This document shows positions 35,194 to 40,983 of a stretch of DNA of 64,000 nucleotides, in pieces. The notes under the pieces were generated by a model. The model did not search any database, had not been told where the DNA came from, and saw only the letters and a list, made by a program, of their open reading frames with translations. The stretch is taken from assembly GCF_030815405.1 (NCBI RefSeq), contig NZ_JAUSWX010000001.1:2790001-2854000 (forward strand), written 5' to 3'. This DNA comes from Agromyces albus (GTDB lineage: Bacteria > Actinomycetota > Actinomycetes > Actinomycetales > Microbacteriaceae). Each line of letters starts with the position of its first letter. Position 1 is the first letter of the stretch. Both the position numbers and the translations under genes were made by a program.

Positions 35194-36705
35194 GTGACCG
35201 ACACCACCTTCAGCACGCTCGGCGTGCCCGCTCCCCTCGTCGCGGCTCTCGCCGCCGATGGGATCACCTCCCCGTTCCCGATCCAGGTCGACACCCTGCC
35301 CGACACGCTCGCCGGACGCGACGTGCTCGGCCGCGGCAAGACCGGCTCGGGCAAGACCCTCGCCTTCTCGATCCCGATGGCCGCGCGCCTCGGTGGCGTG
35401 CTCGCGGGCGGCACACGTCGCCCCGGCCGTCCCCTCGGCCTCGTGCTCGCCCCCACCCGTGAGCTCGCGACCCAGATCGACGCGGTGCTGGCACCGCTCG
35501 CCGCGGCCTACGGCATGAAGACCACGACGATCTTCGGCGGCATCAGCCAGAAGCGCCAGGTCGACGCACTGCGCGCCGGCGTCGACATCGTCGTCGCCTG
35601 CCCCGGGCGCCTCGAAGACCTCATGAAGCAGGGTCACGTCTCGCTCGACGCGATCGAGATCACCGTGCTCGACGAGGCCGACCACATGGCCGACCTCGGC
35701 TTCCTCCCGGTCGTCACCCGCATCATGGACAAGACGCCCACCGGCGGTCAGCGCCTGCTGTTCTCGGCGACGCTCGACAACGGCGTGGACAAGCTCGTCA
35801 AGCGCTTCCTCCAGAACCAGGTGCTGCACTCGGTCGACGAGGCCAACTCGCACGTCGCCGCGATGACCCACCACGTGTTCGAGGTCGACGACGTCGACCA
35901 GAAGAACGAGCTCATCAGCACGCTCGCTTCGGGCACCGGCCGCCGCATCCTCTTCATGCGCACCAAGCACCACGCGAAGAAGCTCGCGAAGAAGCTCACC
36001 GACCAGGGCATCCCCGCGGTCGACCTGCACGGCAACCTGTCGCAGCCGCAGCGCGACCGCAACCTCGCCGCGTTCGGCGACGGCTCGGTCAAGGTGCTGG
36101 TGGCCACGGATGTCGCGGCGCGCGGCGTGCACGTCGACGACGTCGAGCTCGTCATCCACGTCGACCCGCCCACCGAGCACAAGGCGTACCTGCACCGCTC
36201 GGGCCGCACGGCTCGCGCCGGCAGCGCGGGCGATGTCGTGACGATCAGCCTGCCCGCCCAGAAGCAGGACCTGAAGACGCTGCTCCGCAAGGCCGCCATC
36301 ACGGTGACCCCGCAGCGCGTCACCGCCACGTCGGCCCCTGTCACCACCCTCGTCGGCGACGTGGCCCCCTACGTGAAGCCTGCTCCTCGCGAGCAGTACC
36401 AGCAGCAGGGCGGCGGCCGCTCGCAGGGCGCCAACGCGCAGCGCAAGCGGTCAGCTCGCTCCGGCGAAGGCCGCGGCCAGTCGGATGTCGGCACGGCATC
36501 GCCTCGCCGCGACCGCTCCGGCCGCACCGCCGAGACCAAGGCGCAGGCGCCGAAGCAGGGCGGCGGCCACAGCCGCGGCGCGCAGACGACGGGCGCCCAG
36601 CGCGGCACCTCGGCGCGTTCGGGCTCGGCCAAGCAGCCGATCCGCGTTGGTAGCCTCGTGTCGCCGTCGCGCAACGACCGCGGCAACCGGCGCGCGCAGG
36701 GCTAG
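35194..36705 (+). CDS. DEAD-box ATP-dependent RNA helicase
   Basis: 503 residues from a GTG, with a long leader. All core motifs are present: Q motif (FPIQVDTLP), motif I GKTGSGKT, motif Ia PTRELATQ, motif II DEAD, motif III SAT, motif V ATDVAARGVHVD and motif VI HRSGRTARAG. A ~120-residue basic Gly/Gln/Arg/Ser-rich disordered tail (about 385-503) follows, typical of RhlE-like actinobacterial helicases that remodel rRNA or mRNA in the cold. A decayed copy of this tail lies at 39204-39481. Followed by a strong terminator. Confidence 0.94.
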   Translation: MTDTTFSTLGVPAPLVAALAADGITSPFPIQVDTLPDTLAGRDVLGRGKTGSGKTLAFSIPMAARLGGVLAGGTRRPGRPLGLVLAPTRELATQIDAVLAPLAAAYGMKTTTIFGGISQKRQVDALRAGVDIVVACPGRLEDLMKQGHVSLDAIEITVLDEADHMADLGFLPVVTRIMDKTPTGGQRLLFSATLDNGVDKLVKRFLQNQVLHSVDEANSHVAAMTHHVFEVDDVDQKNELISTLASGTGRRILFMRTKHHAKKLAKKLTDQGIPAVDLHGNLSQPQRDRNLAAFGDGSVKVLVATDVAARGVHVDDVELVIHVDPPTEHKAYLHRSGRTARAGSAGDVVTISLPAQKQDLKTLLRKAAITVTPQRVTATSAPVTTLVGDVAPYVKPAPREQYQQQGGGRSQGANAQRKRSARSGEGRGQSDVGTASPRRDRSGRTAETKAQAPKQGGGHSRGAQTTGAQRGTSARSGSAKQPIRVGSLVSPSRNDRGNRRAQG

Positions 36706-36857: not shown

Positions 36858-36923
36858 ATCCGTCGGGCGACGACCCCCATCGCCGCCCTCGGTCCCCGCC
36901 ATTGAGGCGGGGGATCGGGCCGT
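36841..36923. repeat. Direct repeat R1 bordering the ECF sigma island
   Basis: About 83 bp similar to 39121-39203, exactly 2280 bp away and in the same orientation. Identical cores are 36871-36900 with 39151-39180 (30 bp) and 36906-36923 with 39186-39203 (18 bp); the rest differs by a few substitutions and two single-base gaps. Each copy contains a small hairpin (CCCCGCC-N5-GGCGGGG). The two repeats enclose the small ORF, crystallin-like, anti-sigma and sigma genes. Confidence 0.85.
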
Positions 36924-36959: not shown

Positions 36960-37079
36960 TCACCAGGCGCCCATCATCGCGCGCCCGATCTCGCCGCCCA
37001 CGAGCACCGCCACGGCGACCGCCATCCCGGAGCCCGCGGCGAGCGCCGCGACGGCCGCCCATGTCTTCGTGCGCCTCAT
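36960..37079 (-). CDS. 39-residue single-pass membrane protein
   Basis: Small ORF from ATG 37079 to TGA 36960. It has a strong ribosome site (GAGGGGG, 5 bases upstream) and sits about 20 nt after the predicted start site of the minus-strand GGAACC-N16-ACATAC promoter at 37107-37133. The peptide begins MRRTKTWAAVAALAAG, a positively charged start plus a hydrophobic stretch rich in Ala/Val/Gly running to about residue 31, ending GRAMMGAW. It could be a membrane-inserted micropeptide or a cleaved signal-like peptide. The dedicated promoter and ribosome site argue that it is real. It is divergent from the crystallin-like gene and shares its regulation. Confidence 0.6.
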   Translation of the reverse strand: MRRTKTWAAVAALAAGSGMAVAVAVLVGGEIGRAMMGAW

Positions 37080-37106
37080 GCTGCCCCCTCGATCCGTTCA
37101 CAGGGG

Positions 37107-37133
37107 TATGTCCGGCAACTCGCATCGGGTTCC
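37107..37133 (-). promoter_or_regulatory. ECF-type promoter for the 39-residue membrane protein
   Basis: On the minus strand GGAACC (37128-37133), 16-bp spacer, ACATA (37107-37111). A GGAACC-type -35 box is typical of ECF sigma promoters. The same arrangement occurs at 37147-37173 (+) and 39073-39100 (-), all next to genes of the sigma island. Because this site and the next are divergent, they also form a 9-bp inverted repeat (TATGTCCGG...CCGGACATA). Confidence 0.72.
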
Positions 37134-37146
37134 CTCGGCCGGATCG

Positions 37147-37173
37147 CGAACCTGTGAGCCCTCACCGGACATA
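37147..37173 (+). promoter_or_regulatory. ECF-type promoter for the crystallin-like gene
   Basis: CGAACC (37147-37152), 16-bp spacer, ACATA (37169-37173) on the plus strand, one base different from the -35 of the two sister promoters. Predicted start near 37180 gives a ~43-nt leader with ribosome site GAAGGGAA before the ATG at 37223. Confidence 0.7.
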
Positions 37174-37222
37174 TGAGTGTGAGGATGCGGCGCGCCCGGC
37201 GCCGACCGACGAAGGGAACCCG

Positions 37223-37777
37223 ATGAAGCTGCAGACGATCGGCGCAGTACTCGCGACCGTGATCGCATTCGCCCCCGGCAACGGCCTGAGTCAGGCCCCC
37301 GAGGTCGGCCCACCGGCGGCATCCGACATCGTGCACTGTGCTGTCGAGGTACAGCCCACCGACGCGAGGTCGACCGCTGGGCGCGCGCCGGCCGAGCCGG
37401 TGTGCTTCGGCACCCGCGCCGAGGTAGACGGCTACCTCGACGGCGTCCTGCGCGCCGACGACGGCCGGATGAGCACCGCCTCGGCGTCGACGATCCTGGG
37501 CCGGGTCTACACCGACGTGAACGGCGGCGGCTCGAGCCTCGCGTTCTGGGGATCGAGCGGATGCTACGGAGTCACGTTCGGGTTCGCGAGCCTGCCCTCG
37601 GGCTGGAACAACACCATCAGCTCGGCGGGCGGGTCGAACGGGTGCTGGGTGACGCTCTACACCGAGACCTCCTACGGCGGGAGCCGGCTGAACTGCACGC
37701 CGTGGTGCGGCAGCATCGGGACCCTCAACGATCGGGTGAGGTCGCTCGTCTTCCGCCCGACCGGCACGTTCGGCTAA
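37223..37777 (+). CDS. Secreted beta/gamma-crystallin-like (inhibitor I36-like) protein
   Basis: 184 residues from ATG 37223 after GAAGGGAA. An N-terminal signal peptide (MKLQTIGAVLATVIAFAPG, cleavage about residue 24) precedes a ~65-residue spacer with two Cys, then a Greek-key domain: VYTDVNGGGSSLAFWG, GCYGVTFGFASLPSGWNN, then CWVTLYTETSYGGSRLNC and SIGTLNDRVRSLVF. The Y-x-D-x-N-x-G and Y-x-x-x-x-Y-G-G turns are the crystallin/SMPI-type pattern of Streptomyces metalloproteinase inhibitors (I36). Several Cys suggest disulfides outside the cell. Driven by the ECF-type promoter upstream, so probably an effector of the adjacent sigma factor. Its stop codon overlaps the stop of the convergent anti-sigma-like gene. 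Confidence 0.75.
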   Translation: MKLQTIGAVLATVIAFAPGNGLSQAPEVGPPAASDIVHCAVEVQPTDARSTAGRAPAEPVCFGTRAEVDGYLDGVLRADDGRMSTASASTILGRVYTDVNGGGSSLAFWGSSGCYGVTFGFASLPSGWNNTISSAGGSNGCWVTLYTETSYGGSRLNCTPWCGSIGTLNDRVRSLVFRPTGTFG

Positions 37778-38289
37778 TCGCCGGGGGCGAGGGGGGCGAG
37801 GCCGAGTGCCGCACAGACCGACTCGTTCGGCGACGGCACCACGGCCGCGCTCCCGTCGTCCATCACGCAGACCTGCAGTTCTTCGGGAACGCGACCCGGT
37901 GGGTTGCTCGCCGCCGTGGGGTCGAACTCGTCGTCGAGCACGCCCTGCTCCCACATGAGCGTGCACATGGCCGTGGCATCCGCGACCCGCCCTTCGCCGC
38001 TGGGCGAGGAGATCGTCGCGGCAGAGCCCGGATAGCTGCCGTCGGCGTTGCGCTCGGCGGCGCTCAGGCAGTGGACCAGCTCGGTGTTCGAGACATCGGC
38101 CGGCGGCATGAGCATGGCGCCCGCGGTCGCGGCGACGCCGAGCGCGAGCACGCCGGCGCTGCCCCAGCCGATGAGCCGAAGCCGGAGCTCACGCGCCCGA
38201 CGAGCCGGCTCGGAGCGGACGTGGTCGAGCAGCATCGCCCGGGTCGCGGCATCGCGGGCCGAGGGCCGCTCGTTCGACGATTCGTTCAA
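37774..38289 (-). CDS. Membrane protein, probable anti-sigma factor
   Basis: 171 residues; its ATG overlaps the sigma-factor stop (ATGA). About 37 cytoplasmic charged residues (SSNERPSARDAATRAMLLDH), one transmembrane helix (about 39-63), then a ~105-residue outer domain with four cysteines (VHCLS, AMCTLM, QVCVMD, SVCAAL). Its position and topology fit an anti-sigma factor, but it lacks the zinc-binding HxxxCxxC (ZAS) motif and the cytoplasmic part is unusually short. The outer Cys could form disulfides and sense redox or envelope stress. Anti-sigma function is inferred from context. Confidence 0.65.
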   Translation of the reverse strand: MNESSNERPSARDAATRAMLLDHVRSEPARRARELRLRLIGWGSAGVLALGVAATAGAMLMPPADVSNTELVHCLSAAERNADGSYPGSAATISSPSGEGRVADATAMCTLMWEQGVLDDEFDPTAASNPPGRVPEELQVCVMDDGSAAVVPSPNESVCAALGLAPLAPGD

Positions 38290-38918
38290 CTCTGCACCTC
38301 CAGGCCTTCGGCGTGAGCAGGCGCAGGCCCGTGGGCGGGTGCCGGCTCGGCCCTTGCTCCTCGGCGATCGCCGAGCGCCTCCCGCAGCTTCGCGCGGGCA
38401 CGGTGGAGCCGTGACTTCACCGTGCCGATCGGGAGGTCGAGCACGCTCGCGACCGACGCCATCGGCAGCTCCTCGACGAGGCAGAGCTCCACTACGCGCT
38501 GTTCGACCGGATTGAGCCGGCGCAGCGCCGCCGAGAGCTCCTTCGACGCCGGTTCACCGTCGAGGCGCTCGGTGATCTCGAGGCTCGGGTCGTCGACATG
38601 CTCGGCCGGCGGGAGCTTCGCGAGCAGCCGGCGATAGCGCCGACCCGAGCGCTCGCTGTTGAGCGAGACGTTCGTCGTGACGACGAGGAGCCACGGGAGC
38701 AGGGACCCGTCGACGAAGCGGACCGACGAGCGGCGACGCCAAGCCTCGAGGAACACCATCGCGACGATGTCCTCCGCCTCGGAGACGTCGAGCACGCGCG
38801 AATGCGCCTTGCGGAAGATGCGGGCGCGGTACCGGTCGTAGATCACGCCGAACGACTCCTCTGTACCGGATGTCGCCTCGAGCCAGAGGGCCGCGTCTGA
38901 TCGCTCTTCCTCAACCAT
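38286..38918 (-). CDS. ECF RNA polymerase sigma factor
   Basis: 210 residues from ATG 38918 (GTG 38966 would add 16 residues). Region 2 (about 20-85) has FGVIYDRYRARIFRKAHSRV and DIVAMVFLEAWRRRSSVRF; region 4 (about 125-175) has LNPVEQRVVELCLVEELPMA and the helix-turn-helix LDLPIGTVKSRLHRARAKLR. Belongs to the SigE/SigK-like ECF group. It is the first gene of a two-gene operon with the membrane partner and has the promoter GGAACC-N16-ACATAT upstream, so it very likely directs its own transcription and that of the crystallin-like and 39-residue genes. Confidence 0.92.
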   Translation of the reverse strand: MVEEERSDAALWLEATSGTEESFGVIYDRYRARIFRKAHSRVLDVSEAEDIVAMVFLEAWRRRSSVRFVDGSLLPWLLVVTTNVSLNSERSGRRYRRLLAKLPPAEHVDDPSLEITERLDGEPASKELSAALRRLNPVEQRVVELCLVEELPMASVASVLDLPIGTVKSRLHRARAKLREALGDRRGARAEPAPAHGPAPAHAEGLEVQS

Positions 38919-39072
38919 GTGCCGCCCAGCATATCCGCGCGGCCCGGCGACCCGTGTCTCGTCCACCCCCTGGCACGGGTCACCGTTTCTCGCGTCGGAT
39001 GCACCGACTCCCCGCCTTCACCGCCCACGCCGATCCCTTCGTCGGGGCCCCCATTGTGTTGTCCCTGCACAG

Positions 39073-39100
39073 ATATGTCCGCATCATGCGCTTCGGTTCC
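39073..39100 (-). promoter_or_regulatory. ECF-type autoregulatory promoter of the sigma operon
   Basis: On the minus strand GGAACC (39095-39100), 16-bp spacer, ACATAT (39073-39078). This matches the two promoters of the crystallin/39-residue divergent region in -35, spacing and -10. Predicted start near 39066, leaving a leader of roughly 100-150 nt. Confidence 0.75.
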
Positions 39101-39120: not shown

Positions 39121-39203
39121 TCGCGGGCAGATCCCCATCCGTCGGGGCGGCGACCCCCATCGCCGCCCTCGGTCCCCGCCGTGACGGCGGGGGATCGGGC
39201 CGT
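39121..39203. repeat. Direct repeat R2 bordering the ECF sigma island
   Basis: Second copy of the ~83-bp repeat described at 36841-36923, same orientation. It abuts the decayed helicase tail with no gap, whereas R1 lies about 185 bp after the corresponding point of the intact helicase gene. The interval 38967-39482 contains this repeat, the sigma promoter and the helicase relic, and no intact gene. Confidence 0.85.
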
Positions 39204-39481
39204 CCAGTCGCAGGGTGGCGGCGGACGCTCGAATGGCGCCAACGCGCAGCGCAAGCGCGCGCACCACGCGACGGCGAGGGCCGCGGGCGCGGCCAGGCGG
39301 ATGTCGCCCCAGCGATCCCGCGTCGTGACCACTCCGGCCGCGCGGCCGAGACGAAGGCGCACGCGCCGAAGCAGGGGGCGGGCCACTGCCGCGGCGCCCA
39401 GACCTCGGGCGCCCAGCGCGGGGCATCCGCTCACGGTGGCGCGAAGCAGCCGATGCGCGTCGGCAGCCTTCAGTCGAAATC
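39204..39481 (+). pseudogene. Decayed copy of the DEAD-box helicase C-terminal tail
   Basis: The sequence parallels 36400-36656 of the intact helicase. One frame starts QGGGGRSNGANAQRKR (helicase: QGGGRSQGANAQRKR); after a frameshift near 39258 a second frame continues with PRRDHSGRAAETKAHAPKQG and AKQPMRVGSL (helicase: PRRDRSGRTAETKAQAPKQG, AKQPIRVGSL). None of the helicase core is present. It is a relic of a duplication or of a recombination that displaced the original gene end. Confidence 0.85.
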
Positions 39482-39482
39482 G

Positions 39483-39749
39483 TCAGTAGCTCGCGTAGAA
39501 GCTGCTGAGCACGCGGTCGACCGCGTCGAAGTCGGCGTCGCTGATGGCCTGTGCCGCGACGATGATCGAGTAGGTGCCCGAGTTGTCGTTCGCGCCGACG
39601 ATGACGTAGGTGGCCTCGCCACCGCATCCGGTGAAGGTCTCCCAGACGCCGACGTGCAGCCCGTCATCGAACGGCTCACGGCCCGTGGAGACGCAACCGT
39701 GCGCGGCGAGATCGCCCGTCACGAGGTCGGCTGCAGCATCCGGCGCCAT
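39483..39749 (-). pseudogene. Out-of-frame C-terminal end of the trypsin-like lipoprotein
   Basis: An 88-residue reading frame (MAPDAAADLVTGDLAAHGC...VLSSFYASY) that continues the fold of the preceding protease once one G is removed from the GGGG run at 39784-39787. Restored, the join reads WSTPGVTIYASQAAASMAPD. It holds a pair of Cys and ends in a natural stop. Either a sequencing error or a real frameshift separates it from the main gene. Confidence 0.75.
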
Positions 39750-40983
39750 CGAGGCCGCCGCCTGCGAGGCGTAGATCGTGACGCCCCGGCGTCGACCAGG
39801 TGCCCTCGTAGCCGGCGAGGTCGGGGGCGGCCGAGACAGCGTCCCAAGTCGTCCCGTTCGTGTCGGTGACGGGTGCGCCGTCGATCTGACTCCAGCTGGC
39901 GGGAACTTCGAGGCTGATCGAACCCGAGTCGTCCGTGATACTCACGTACTCGCCGGATGCCGGATCGTCGGTGCCGCCGCCCACGACCGGGACGGCCGTG
40001 ATCGCGTCACCGTTGAACTGGCCGCGGTAGTACGAGTCCTCGGCGGGTCGGTACAGCTCCACGGAGATCGTCGCGTCCTGGCCGTGGGTGCGCAGCACGT
40101 CGCAGTACTCTCTCATCGTGCCGTCGACGGCGAGGCTCACGCCCTCCATGCGGGTGAGCAGGTCGCCGGGTTCGACGCCCACCTTGTCGGCGGCCGACCC
40201 GGACTTCACCGAGTTCACCCACACGCCGATGCCGGCGCCGTCCTCGTCGACAAGGGCCTCGCCGTTGATGCCGAGGCTCAGCACGTCCTTGCCGTCGACG
40301 AGGTCGCCGATGACCTCGAGCACCTCGTCGCGGTGGATGGCGAAGTTGTAGTCGAGCTCGTCATTGCCGGCGTAGTTCACGCCGACGACCGCGCCCGCGC
40401 TGTCGACCAGCGGTCCGCCCGAGTTGCCGCCGCGGATGCGGGCGTCGTGCTCGATCACGCCGTCGATCGATGCCCACGGTGTCTCGCCGCTCGTGAGCGC
40501 CTTCGATACGATGCCCTTGGTCTCGGTGAAGGTCGGGTCGCCGAGCGGGTAGCCGGCGGCGTAGACGTCGAGCGCGGTCTCGATCTCGCCCTTCCGCCAG
40601 TCCATGAACGGATAATTGCCCCGCTCGAGCTGCACGACGGCGAGGTCGAGACACTCGGAGGAGCCGAGGACCTTTGCGCTGAGCTCATTCGTCGTGTCGC
40701 CGCCGCGCCAGACCTTGAGGGTGCCGGCGCCGGTGACGACGTGGTTGTTGGTGAGGGCCAGTCCGTCGGGGGTGATGATGAAGCCCGAGCCGCGGCCGGC
40801 AGACTCCAAGCCGCCCTCCTCGGGCGAGACGAACGTGCCGACGGCTTCGAGCTGGATGGTCGCGGACTGCACGCCGTCGAAGCCGACGGGCGCGTTCGCC
40901 GCAGTGGTGACGCAGCCCGCGAGCACGATGACGCTTGCCGTTGCACCCACGAGCAGGCTGATTTTAGCGGTGTTCTCAGGCAT
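39676..40983 (-). CDS. Trypsin-like serine protease lipoprotein with PDZ domain (frameshifted 3' end)
   Basis: 435 residues as read, but the last ~35 are out of frame; the restored protein would run to 39483 (about 499 residues). Signal peptide with lipobox LAGC (VIVLAGCVTT). The protease domain has GSGFIITPDGLALTNNHVV (catalytic His), SECLDLAVVQLE (Asp) and RIRGGNSGGPLVD (Ser). A PDZ-like domain follows (GIGVWVNSVKSGSAADKVGV), then a C-terminal beta domain. HtrA/DegP-type architecture anchored outside the cell, probably for envelope protein quality control. It sits next to the ECF sigma island, but no shared promoter was seen. Confidence 0.85.
   Translation of the reverse strand: MPENTAKISLLVGATASVIVLAGCVTTAANAPVGFDGVQSATIQLEAVGTFVSPEEGGLESAGRGSGFIITPDGLALTNNHVVTGAGTLKVWRGGDTTNELSAKVLGSSECLDLAVVQLERGNYPFMDWRKGEIETALDVYAAGYPLGDPTFTETKGIVSKALTSGETPWASIDGVIEHDARIRGGNSGGPLVDSAGAVVGVNYAGNDELDYNFAIHRDEVLEVIGDLVDGKDVLSLGINGEALVDEDGAGIGVWVNSVKSGSAADKVGVEPGDLLTRMEGVSLAVDGTMREYCDVLRTHGQDATISVELYRPAEDSYYRGQFNGDAITAVPVVGGGTDDPASGEYVSITDDSGSISLEVPASWSQIDGAPVTDTNGTTWDAVSAAPDLAGYEGTWSTPGRHDLRLAGGGLDGAGCCSRPRDGRSRRARLRLHGP

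Follow-up and report, generated by a model that had tools for sequence, protein, structure and literature searches.

Examination of a 64,000-nucleotide stretch of the Agromyces albus genome (contig NZ_JAUSWX010000001.1; hereafter, the window) points to a module, at positions 36960 to 39100, in which an extracytoplasmic function (ECF) sigma factor and a putative anti-sigma factor probably control their own synthesis, together with that of two further proteins, one secreted and crystallin-like, the other a tiny protein of the membrane. Comparison with related genomes gives us high confidence in this regulatory circuit, a confidence that concerns the circuit and not the roles of the effectors. 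In the window species, the sigma factor appears to activate only its own operon and the genes encoding these two proteins, such that the promoter, regulator and outputs of what would be a very small, self-labelled regulon are packed into about 2 kb.

The sigma factor and its probable promoters

The 210-residue product of the sigma gene (38286..38918, minus strand) is matched above cutoff by Pfam Sigma70_r2 (residues 26-94) and Sigma70_r4_2 (residues 127-178), with region 3 being unmatched. Possessing Sigma70 regions 2 and 4 but not region 3, the protein is an ECF sigma factor. Comparison with profiles of PDB entries returned SigW, SigL, SigE and SigK, and the window genome (G000; one contig of 4,268,800 bases) contains one sigma match at E<=1e-30. 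The sigma gene overlaps by 4 nt with the gene encoding the putative anti-sigma factor (37774..38289, minus strand; 171 residues). The gene encoding the secreted protein (37223..37777, plus strand; 184 residues) is convergent with the anti-sigma gene and divergent from a 39-residue open reading frame (ORF; 36960..37079, minus strand) containing the conserved motif GGEIGRA. This is the gene set named in a preliminary description of the region.

That description had also proposed three promoters sharing GAACC, a 16-bp spacer and ACATA. These were recovered at 37107-37132 (minus strand), 37148-37173 (plus strand) and 39074-39099 (minus strand), with shuffled versions of the window yielding a mean of 0.01 matches (spacers of 15-17). 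When the whole genome was searched, the pattern was encountered three times, in each case inside the module, and the reversed control was not encountered at all. Comparison across genomes sharpened the motif to GGAACC-N13-CGGACAT, with A as the next base in 33 of the 42 sites of a matrix whose members were selected for the CGGACAT core, which is hence presupposed. The -10 element is indeed unusual, as had been proposed, with ACATA corresponding to only a part of CGGACAT and its last base being variable. The elements ending in CGGACATA span 37147..37173 (plus strand) upstream of the crystallin-like gene, 37107..37133 (minus strand) upstream of the tiny ORF and 39074..39100 (minus strand) upstream of the sigma/anti-sigma operon; the -35 box is CGAACC at the plus-strand site and GGAACC at the other two. 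When up to two mismatches to GGAACC-N13-CGGACATA were allowed, 12 sites were found in the genome, including the three of the module, as compared to one for the reversed control. Only one additional site with a single mismatch was seen. Because it faces away from an opposite-strand ORF of about 60 codons and, as judged by eye, crosses the apparent start of that ORF, this site is unlikely to be a promoter.

To this were added scans of 60 Agromyces genomes, 19 of which contain a sigma match at E<=1e-30, with 14 of these matches being orthologs (at least 60% identity). The looser GAACC-N16-ACATA pattern was found at 48 sites, 34 of which present CGG before ACATA; the remaining 14, not ending in CGGACATA, amount to about 0.23 per genome, likely the chance rate of this pattern. 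Sites of the CGGACATA type were almost confined to genomes containing a sigma ortholog (33 of 34 sites; 12 of 14 ortholog genomes, as compared to 1 of the 46 others; Fisher p 8e-10, indicative only, given that the genomes are related). With small variants of the motif being accepted in counts for individual genes, a site was seen upstream of the sigma gene in 13 of the 14 orthologs (the spacer being one base longer in G049 and one shorter, together with TGAACC, in G053), upstream of the I36-type crystallin-like gene in all 13 orthologs having that gene (the G045 locus includes no I36 match), and upstream of the tiny ORF in all 12 genomes containing it. Eight of the 13 I36 promoters contain GGAACT as the -35 box, one of them with a spacer shorter by one base. 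This variant, first noticed at I36 and then counted across the 60 genomes, is present as GGAACT-N13-CGGACATA eight times, always in ortholog genomes; seven of these are I36 promoters, with the other being found in G013.

Alignment of the region between the start codons of the I36 gene and the tiny ORF from 12 genomes provided a view of the same boxes that does not presuppose CGG. The sole long invariant blocks were ATGTCCGG, GGTTC, GAAC and CGGACAT, namely, two -10 and two -35 boxes, with CGGACAT being invariant throughout. Among ungapped columns, 23 of 27 were invariant within the motifs, as compared to 8 of 94 elsewhere (Fisher p 3e-14, again only indicative for related sequences). Comparison of the genomes shows the sigma factor, promoter boxes and outputs to travel together and the boxes to be under selection. 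Since the sigma operon has its own matching promoter, the module is probably autoregulated. The earlier notion of an autoregulated ECF module with three promoters of its own thus gains support from comparative evidence, with autoregulation itself remaining at the level of the probable.

The module had also been called self-contained. This holds for the window genome, where all three exact sites lie within the module; relatives G012, G015, G023, G026 and G049 contain distal sites. In G012, G015 and G049, such a site precedes a gene encoding a serine hydrolase of the beta-lactamase fold bearing a lipobox, as seen by eye (PF00144 was matched in G012 and G049, with the G015 protein being alike by eye). 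Further sites in G049 precede two genes with lipoprotein-like products and another encoding a MOSC protein, those in G026 precede a lipoprotein-like gene and a gene encoding a LuxR-type regulator, and that in G023 precedes, as judged by eye, the same LuxR-type regulator. The distal targets are thus mostly of the surface type and would fit an envelope function, with the MOSC protein and the LuxR-type regulator not being surface proteins.

In a wider scan of named genomes, the best 80 of 94 related stretches were considered as loci. The order sigma/anti-sigma/convergent I36 was seen in 23 of these, 12 from Agromyces and 11 from Leifsonia, Naasia, Microbacterium, Cryobacterium, Pseudoclavibacter, a member of the Microbacteriaceae, a metagenome-assembled genome and, with weak matches, from Terrabacter and Humibacillus. 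In two of the 23, the I36 match is only short, and a single Microbacterium contig contributes two, one from each end. Of the 66 non-Agromyces loci, 13 present GGAACC-N12/13-CGGACAT immediately before the sigma gene. Together with locus L197, from a scan of 299 genomes of the family (six of them Agromyces), this makes 14 loci, 13 of which were measured. In ten of these 13 (L141, L144, L151, L157, L159, L161, L163, L168, L171 and L197), several of which are close relatives of each other, ATG begins exactly 8 nt past CGGACAT; in L140, the fourteenth locus, the sigma start lies 117 nt downstream of the motif. The 8-nt spacing suggests that the sigma mRNAs of these distant relatives are leaderless, or nearly so. 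If this is the case, transcription would begin 9 nt beyond the final base of CGGACAT, placing the starts in the window near 37181 (plus strand), 37099 (minus strand) and 39066 (minus strand) for the crystallin-like gene, the tiny ORF and the sigma operon, respectively. In the family scan, exact GGAACC-N13-CGGACATA sites were found in three of the 299 genomes, with the sole match outside Agromyces (G161) lying upstream of a sigma gene whose product shares 45% identity with a member of alignment A4.

A second group of sigma factors, defined by 51-57% identity and without a tree, is found in six Agromyces genomes, with an anti-sigma match beside five and an I36 match beside four. The pattern GCAACC-N13-MGGACATC, chosen after having been seen at three of these paralogous loci, occurs at 11 sites in eight genomes, namely, five of the six paralog genomes and three of the 54 others. 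A GCAACC-type site also precedes I36 at two loci, L139 and L138, the spacer at the latter being 12 bases long. Paralogous sigma/anti-sigma modules are present at L071, L072 and L074-L076, some with an I36 gene of their own and some with GCAACC- or GGAACC-type sites nearby. The idea that GCAACC replaces GGAACC across the paralog clade was weakened upon re-examination. Genomes lacking the paralog account for four of the 11 sites, and the sites of two paralog genomes are far from the sigma gene (on another contig in G018 and about 14 kb away in G046). Moreover, the I36 gene of the G046 paralog is associated with GGAACC-N12-CGGACATC, G047 likewise contains a GGAACC site, and no site lies near the paralog locus in G018.

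Products of the module and competing explanations

The putative anti-sigma factor was considered on the basis of an alignment of 19 sequences and a structural model. About 40-45 cytoplasmic residues are followed by one hydrophobic segment, recognized by eye, and then by an ectodomain in which Cys 74, 109, 141 and 159 are invariant in the 19 sequences. The model presents a single cytoplasmic helix (residues 11-40; pLDDT about 55), with most of the ectodomain being modeled at a pLDDT near 95; comparison of the modeled ectodomain with PDB revealed no clear relative. The zinc-type ASDI motif Hx3Cx2C was not seen by eye in the 19 N-terminal parts, where single His or Cys residues do occur. A homolog of the protein adjoins the sigma gene in 18 of 20 sigma loci fetched, and from such evidence we infer the 171-residue protein to be the anti-sigma factor.

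Given this architecture, the membrane-anchored anti-sigma factor would hold the sigma factor via its short cytoplasmic helix until an extracytoplasmic signal, read by the four-Cys ectodomain, frees the latter, with the signal probably being relayed by proteolysis or conformational change. Freed sigma factor and RNA polymerase would then transcribe from the GGAACC-N13-CGGACAT promoters, a step that finds support in comparative genomics. The outputs would be the sigma/anti-sigma operon, the secreted crystallin-fold (I36-type) protein and the 39-residue, single-span membrane protein. That these outputs act at the cell surface, in protection or in feedback, is quite conceivable, if short of probable.

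In the secreted protein, a signal peptide was recognized by eye. The protein matches PF03995 (Inhibitor_I36) with a score of 24.4 bits, above the cutoff of 21.1, and eight of the 15 aligned homologs match the family at E<=0.01. Its model (mean pLDDT 72.5) was aligned by Foldseek to the betagamma-crystallin structures 1nps and 3i9h with a probability of 1.00 over 95-105 columns and TMt values of 0.64-0.68, the E-values of these matches being 0.004-0.005 and none being below 0.001; profile matches to betagamma-crystallins gave E-values of 4e-4 to 1e-3. The protein is thus predicted to adopt the double Greek-key betagamma-crystallin fold.

Could the boxes be recognized by another sigma factor or DNA-binding regulator, with the neighboring sigma gene merely being under the same control? 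The link between the sigma factor and the boxes comes from sequence comparison, ECF sigma factors can share promoters, as in the Bacillus subtilis case given in PMC6767563, and G009, an Agromyces without the sigma factor, carries a chance-like CGGACATA site. Set against this are the co-occurrence of sites and sigma factor across the 60 genomes, the ECF-like spacing of the -35 and -10 boxes and, in 10 of the 13 distant loci measured, the constant spacing between the boxes and the start codon of the sigma gene, making this explanation very unlikely. Several observations do weigh against the autoregulated module, among them the G009 site. In G044, no site directly precedes the sigma gene, with the nearest, GGAACC-N12-CGGACATC, lying about 440 nt upstream and an ORF of 77 residues intervening. 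The strict motif is not seen in 53 of the 66 non-Agromyces sigma loci, implying that specificity has drifted or is different in these. No curated anti-sigma family of Pfam or NCBIfam matched the putative anti-sigma factor above threshold (NCBIfam CU044_5270 matched weakly, below cutoff). Finally, evidence for joint change of sigma factor and promoter among the paralogs is mixed and offers a lead rather than a result, for which reason confidence in the circuit was slightly lowered. A narrower alternative is that the 39-residue ORF does not encode a protein and that the third promoter directs synthesis of a small RNA or leader. In its favor, the coding signal across the whole ORF is weak (pN/pS 0.81, with 58 of 66 pairs below 1), being nearly matched in one shifted frame (0.89; 47 of 66 pairs) and reaching 1.20 in the other. 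Yet, 12 genomes retain the start, the stop, a length of 37-42 residues, a hydrophobic span and M.R...IGR, and in an 11-codon C-terminal block, considered without a shifted-frame control, differences at codon positions 1, 2 and 3 (0.215, 0.052 and 0.292) are as expected for a hydrophobic coding sequence. A hidden Markov model matched at E<1e-11 in these 12 genomes, all containing sigma orthologs and being those from which the model was built, whereas the remaining 48 Agromyces genomes yielded no strong match. Weaker matches numbered four (E 8e-4 to 0.0065) and fall in open frames of 389-635 codons. The small-RNA explanation is accordingly considered highly improbable, and the comparison supports the 39-residue ORF as encoding a conserved tiny membrane protein. 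This protein is matched by no Pfam or NCBIfam family and, when its 12 versions were used in tblastn against the 80 sigma loci, the only search made of other genera, it was found in Agromyces loci only.

As to the secreted protein, one reading holds it to be a protease inhibitor, with the circuit sensing attack by an extracellular protease on the anti-sigma ectodomain and the I36 protein protecting the surface and shutting the signal off. The Inhibitor_I36 matches among its homologs, the conserved trio arrangement and the parallel with RsiV, an anti-sigma factor that senses lysozyme (PMC5014341), speak for such a role. At the same time, the I36 name is an annotation and not a test, the match is one of fold only, and the solved relatives among the matches listed are betagamma-crystallins; the Streptomyces metalloproteinase inhibitor was not seen among the 50 structure matches listed of 244 nor among the 30 profile matches listed. 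On balance, this reading seems unlikely. Still a little less likely is the fuller version, in which a distinct ECF group with a CGGACAT -10 box would employ the secreted I36/crystallin protein, whose gene is convergent with the adjoining anti-sigma gene in several actinobacterial genera, to block the protease responsible for destroying the anti-sigma ectodomain, so resetting the switch, with the tiny protein tuning that step in Agromyces. Alternatively, the secreted protein might be a crystallin that binds calcium and reinforces the cell surface or matrix, which is possible if doubtful. Betagamma-crystallins bind Ca2+ via the motif N/D-N/D-X-X-S/T-S. The NNTISS of the window protein fits this motif and aligns with the NNTISS of protein S, but the second motif, NDRVRS, presents R at the fifth place, and the leading residues of the first vary among relatives.

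Surroundings of the module

The 3' end of a DEAD-box helicase gene is duplicated across the module (36402-36663 and 39210-39476), as is a nearby stretch (36865-36923 and 39145-39203), with the two copies on the far side lying in swapped order. Both pairs are 81-92% identical and have thus diverged. The second helicase tail is split between two reading frames, and comparison of the tails at the DNA level did not reveal where they came from. A gene encoding a trypsin-like/PDZ protease (39483-40983, minus strand) lies between the sigma gene and a GNAT gene, its frame being interrupted near 39790 as a result of either a real change or a sequencing error. In Agromyces sp. Soil535 (L124), a different small membrane-like ORF of 77 residues, from 4562 (plus strand), is found between GGAACC-N12-CGGACATC and the sigma gene, just upstream of the latter.

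The corresponding locus was considered in 16 of the 41 Agromyces genomes without a sigma match, with longer stretches being used for seven genomes. In the 16 short loci, the sigma, anti-sigma and I36 genes and the tiny ORF were all absent at E<1e-5. A helicase match lies beside the GNAT gene in 12 of the 16, and an S1/PDZ protease match was found in four, one being a fragment of about 35 residues where the helicase is also present; neither was detected within the flank of L220. In the empty sites L214, L215, L218, L223 and L226-L229, some 100-300 nt separate the helicase 3' end from the GNAT gene, while in L230, L231 and L232, which also lack the sigma gene, the protease gene is flanked by those encoding the helicase and GNAT, the module being absent.

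Comparison with known systems

With other ECF (group IV sigma-70) systems, the module shares a sigma factor comprising sigma2 and sigma4 only, an adjacent gene for a putative membrane anti-sigma factor, a predicted upstream promoter of its own, a GGAAC-type -35 box and ECF-like spacing. According to PMC8103513, classical ECF promoters contain AAC at -35 and CGT at -10, and about 55% of ECF sigma factors are autoregulated, such that autoregulation would be ordinary. Here, AAC is present at -35, whereas the -10 box is CGGACAT rather than of the CGT type. Judged by ECF systems as described in the sources cited, this -10 box and this set of outputs are not ordinary. In a limited literature search, no paper describing this module, or its -10 element with these outputs, was found, nor was one mentioning both the I36 family of peptidase inhibitors and ECF sigma factors. 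The unusual conserved -10 box bears on how ECF sigma factors choose promoters, while the tying of a secreted I36/crystallin-type family and a tiny membrane family to a definite regulator would render their functions testable.

Streptomyces coelicolor SigE is likewise an actinobacterial ECF sigma factor, for which targets in the cell envelope and a spacer of 16-17 bp are reported in PMC6767563, the main text of which does not contain the word 'crystallin'. Unlike the SigE regulon, three promoters are gathered here in one module, the products of which include one of the crystallin fold and a tiny protein of the membrane. The putative anti-sigma factor resembles, at most, class II, as represented by CnrY in PMC7406223. 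As in the CnrY/CnrH system, a short helical cytoplasmic part precedes a single membrane span, and one of the 19 homologs weakly matches PF17524 (E 0.03); unlike CnrY, a large Cys-containing ectodomain is fused to the span, and there is no significant family match. Class II factors wrap sigma2 and sigma4 with two short helices; the model of the window protein presents one. Lastly, the secreted protein shares the PF03995 match and a predicted crystallin-like fold with I36 proteins and betagamma-crystallins, an inhibitor role being suggested by the annotation name, and differs from them in having an extra N-terminal domain that includes a helix and a conserved Cys.

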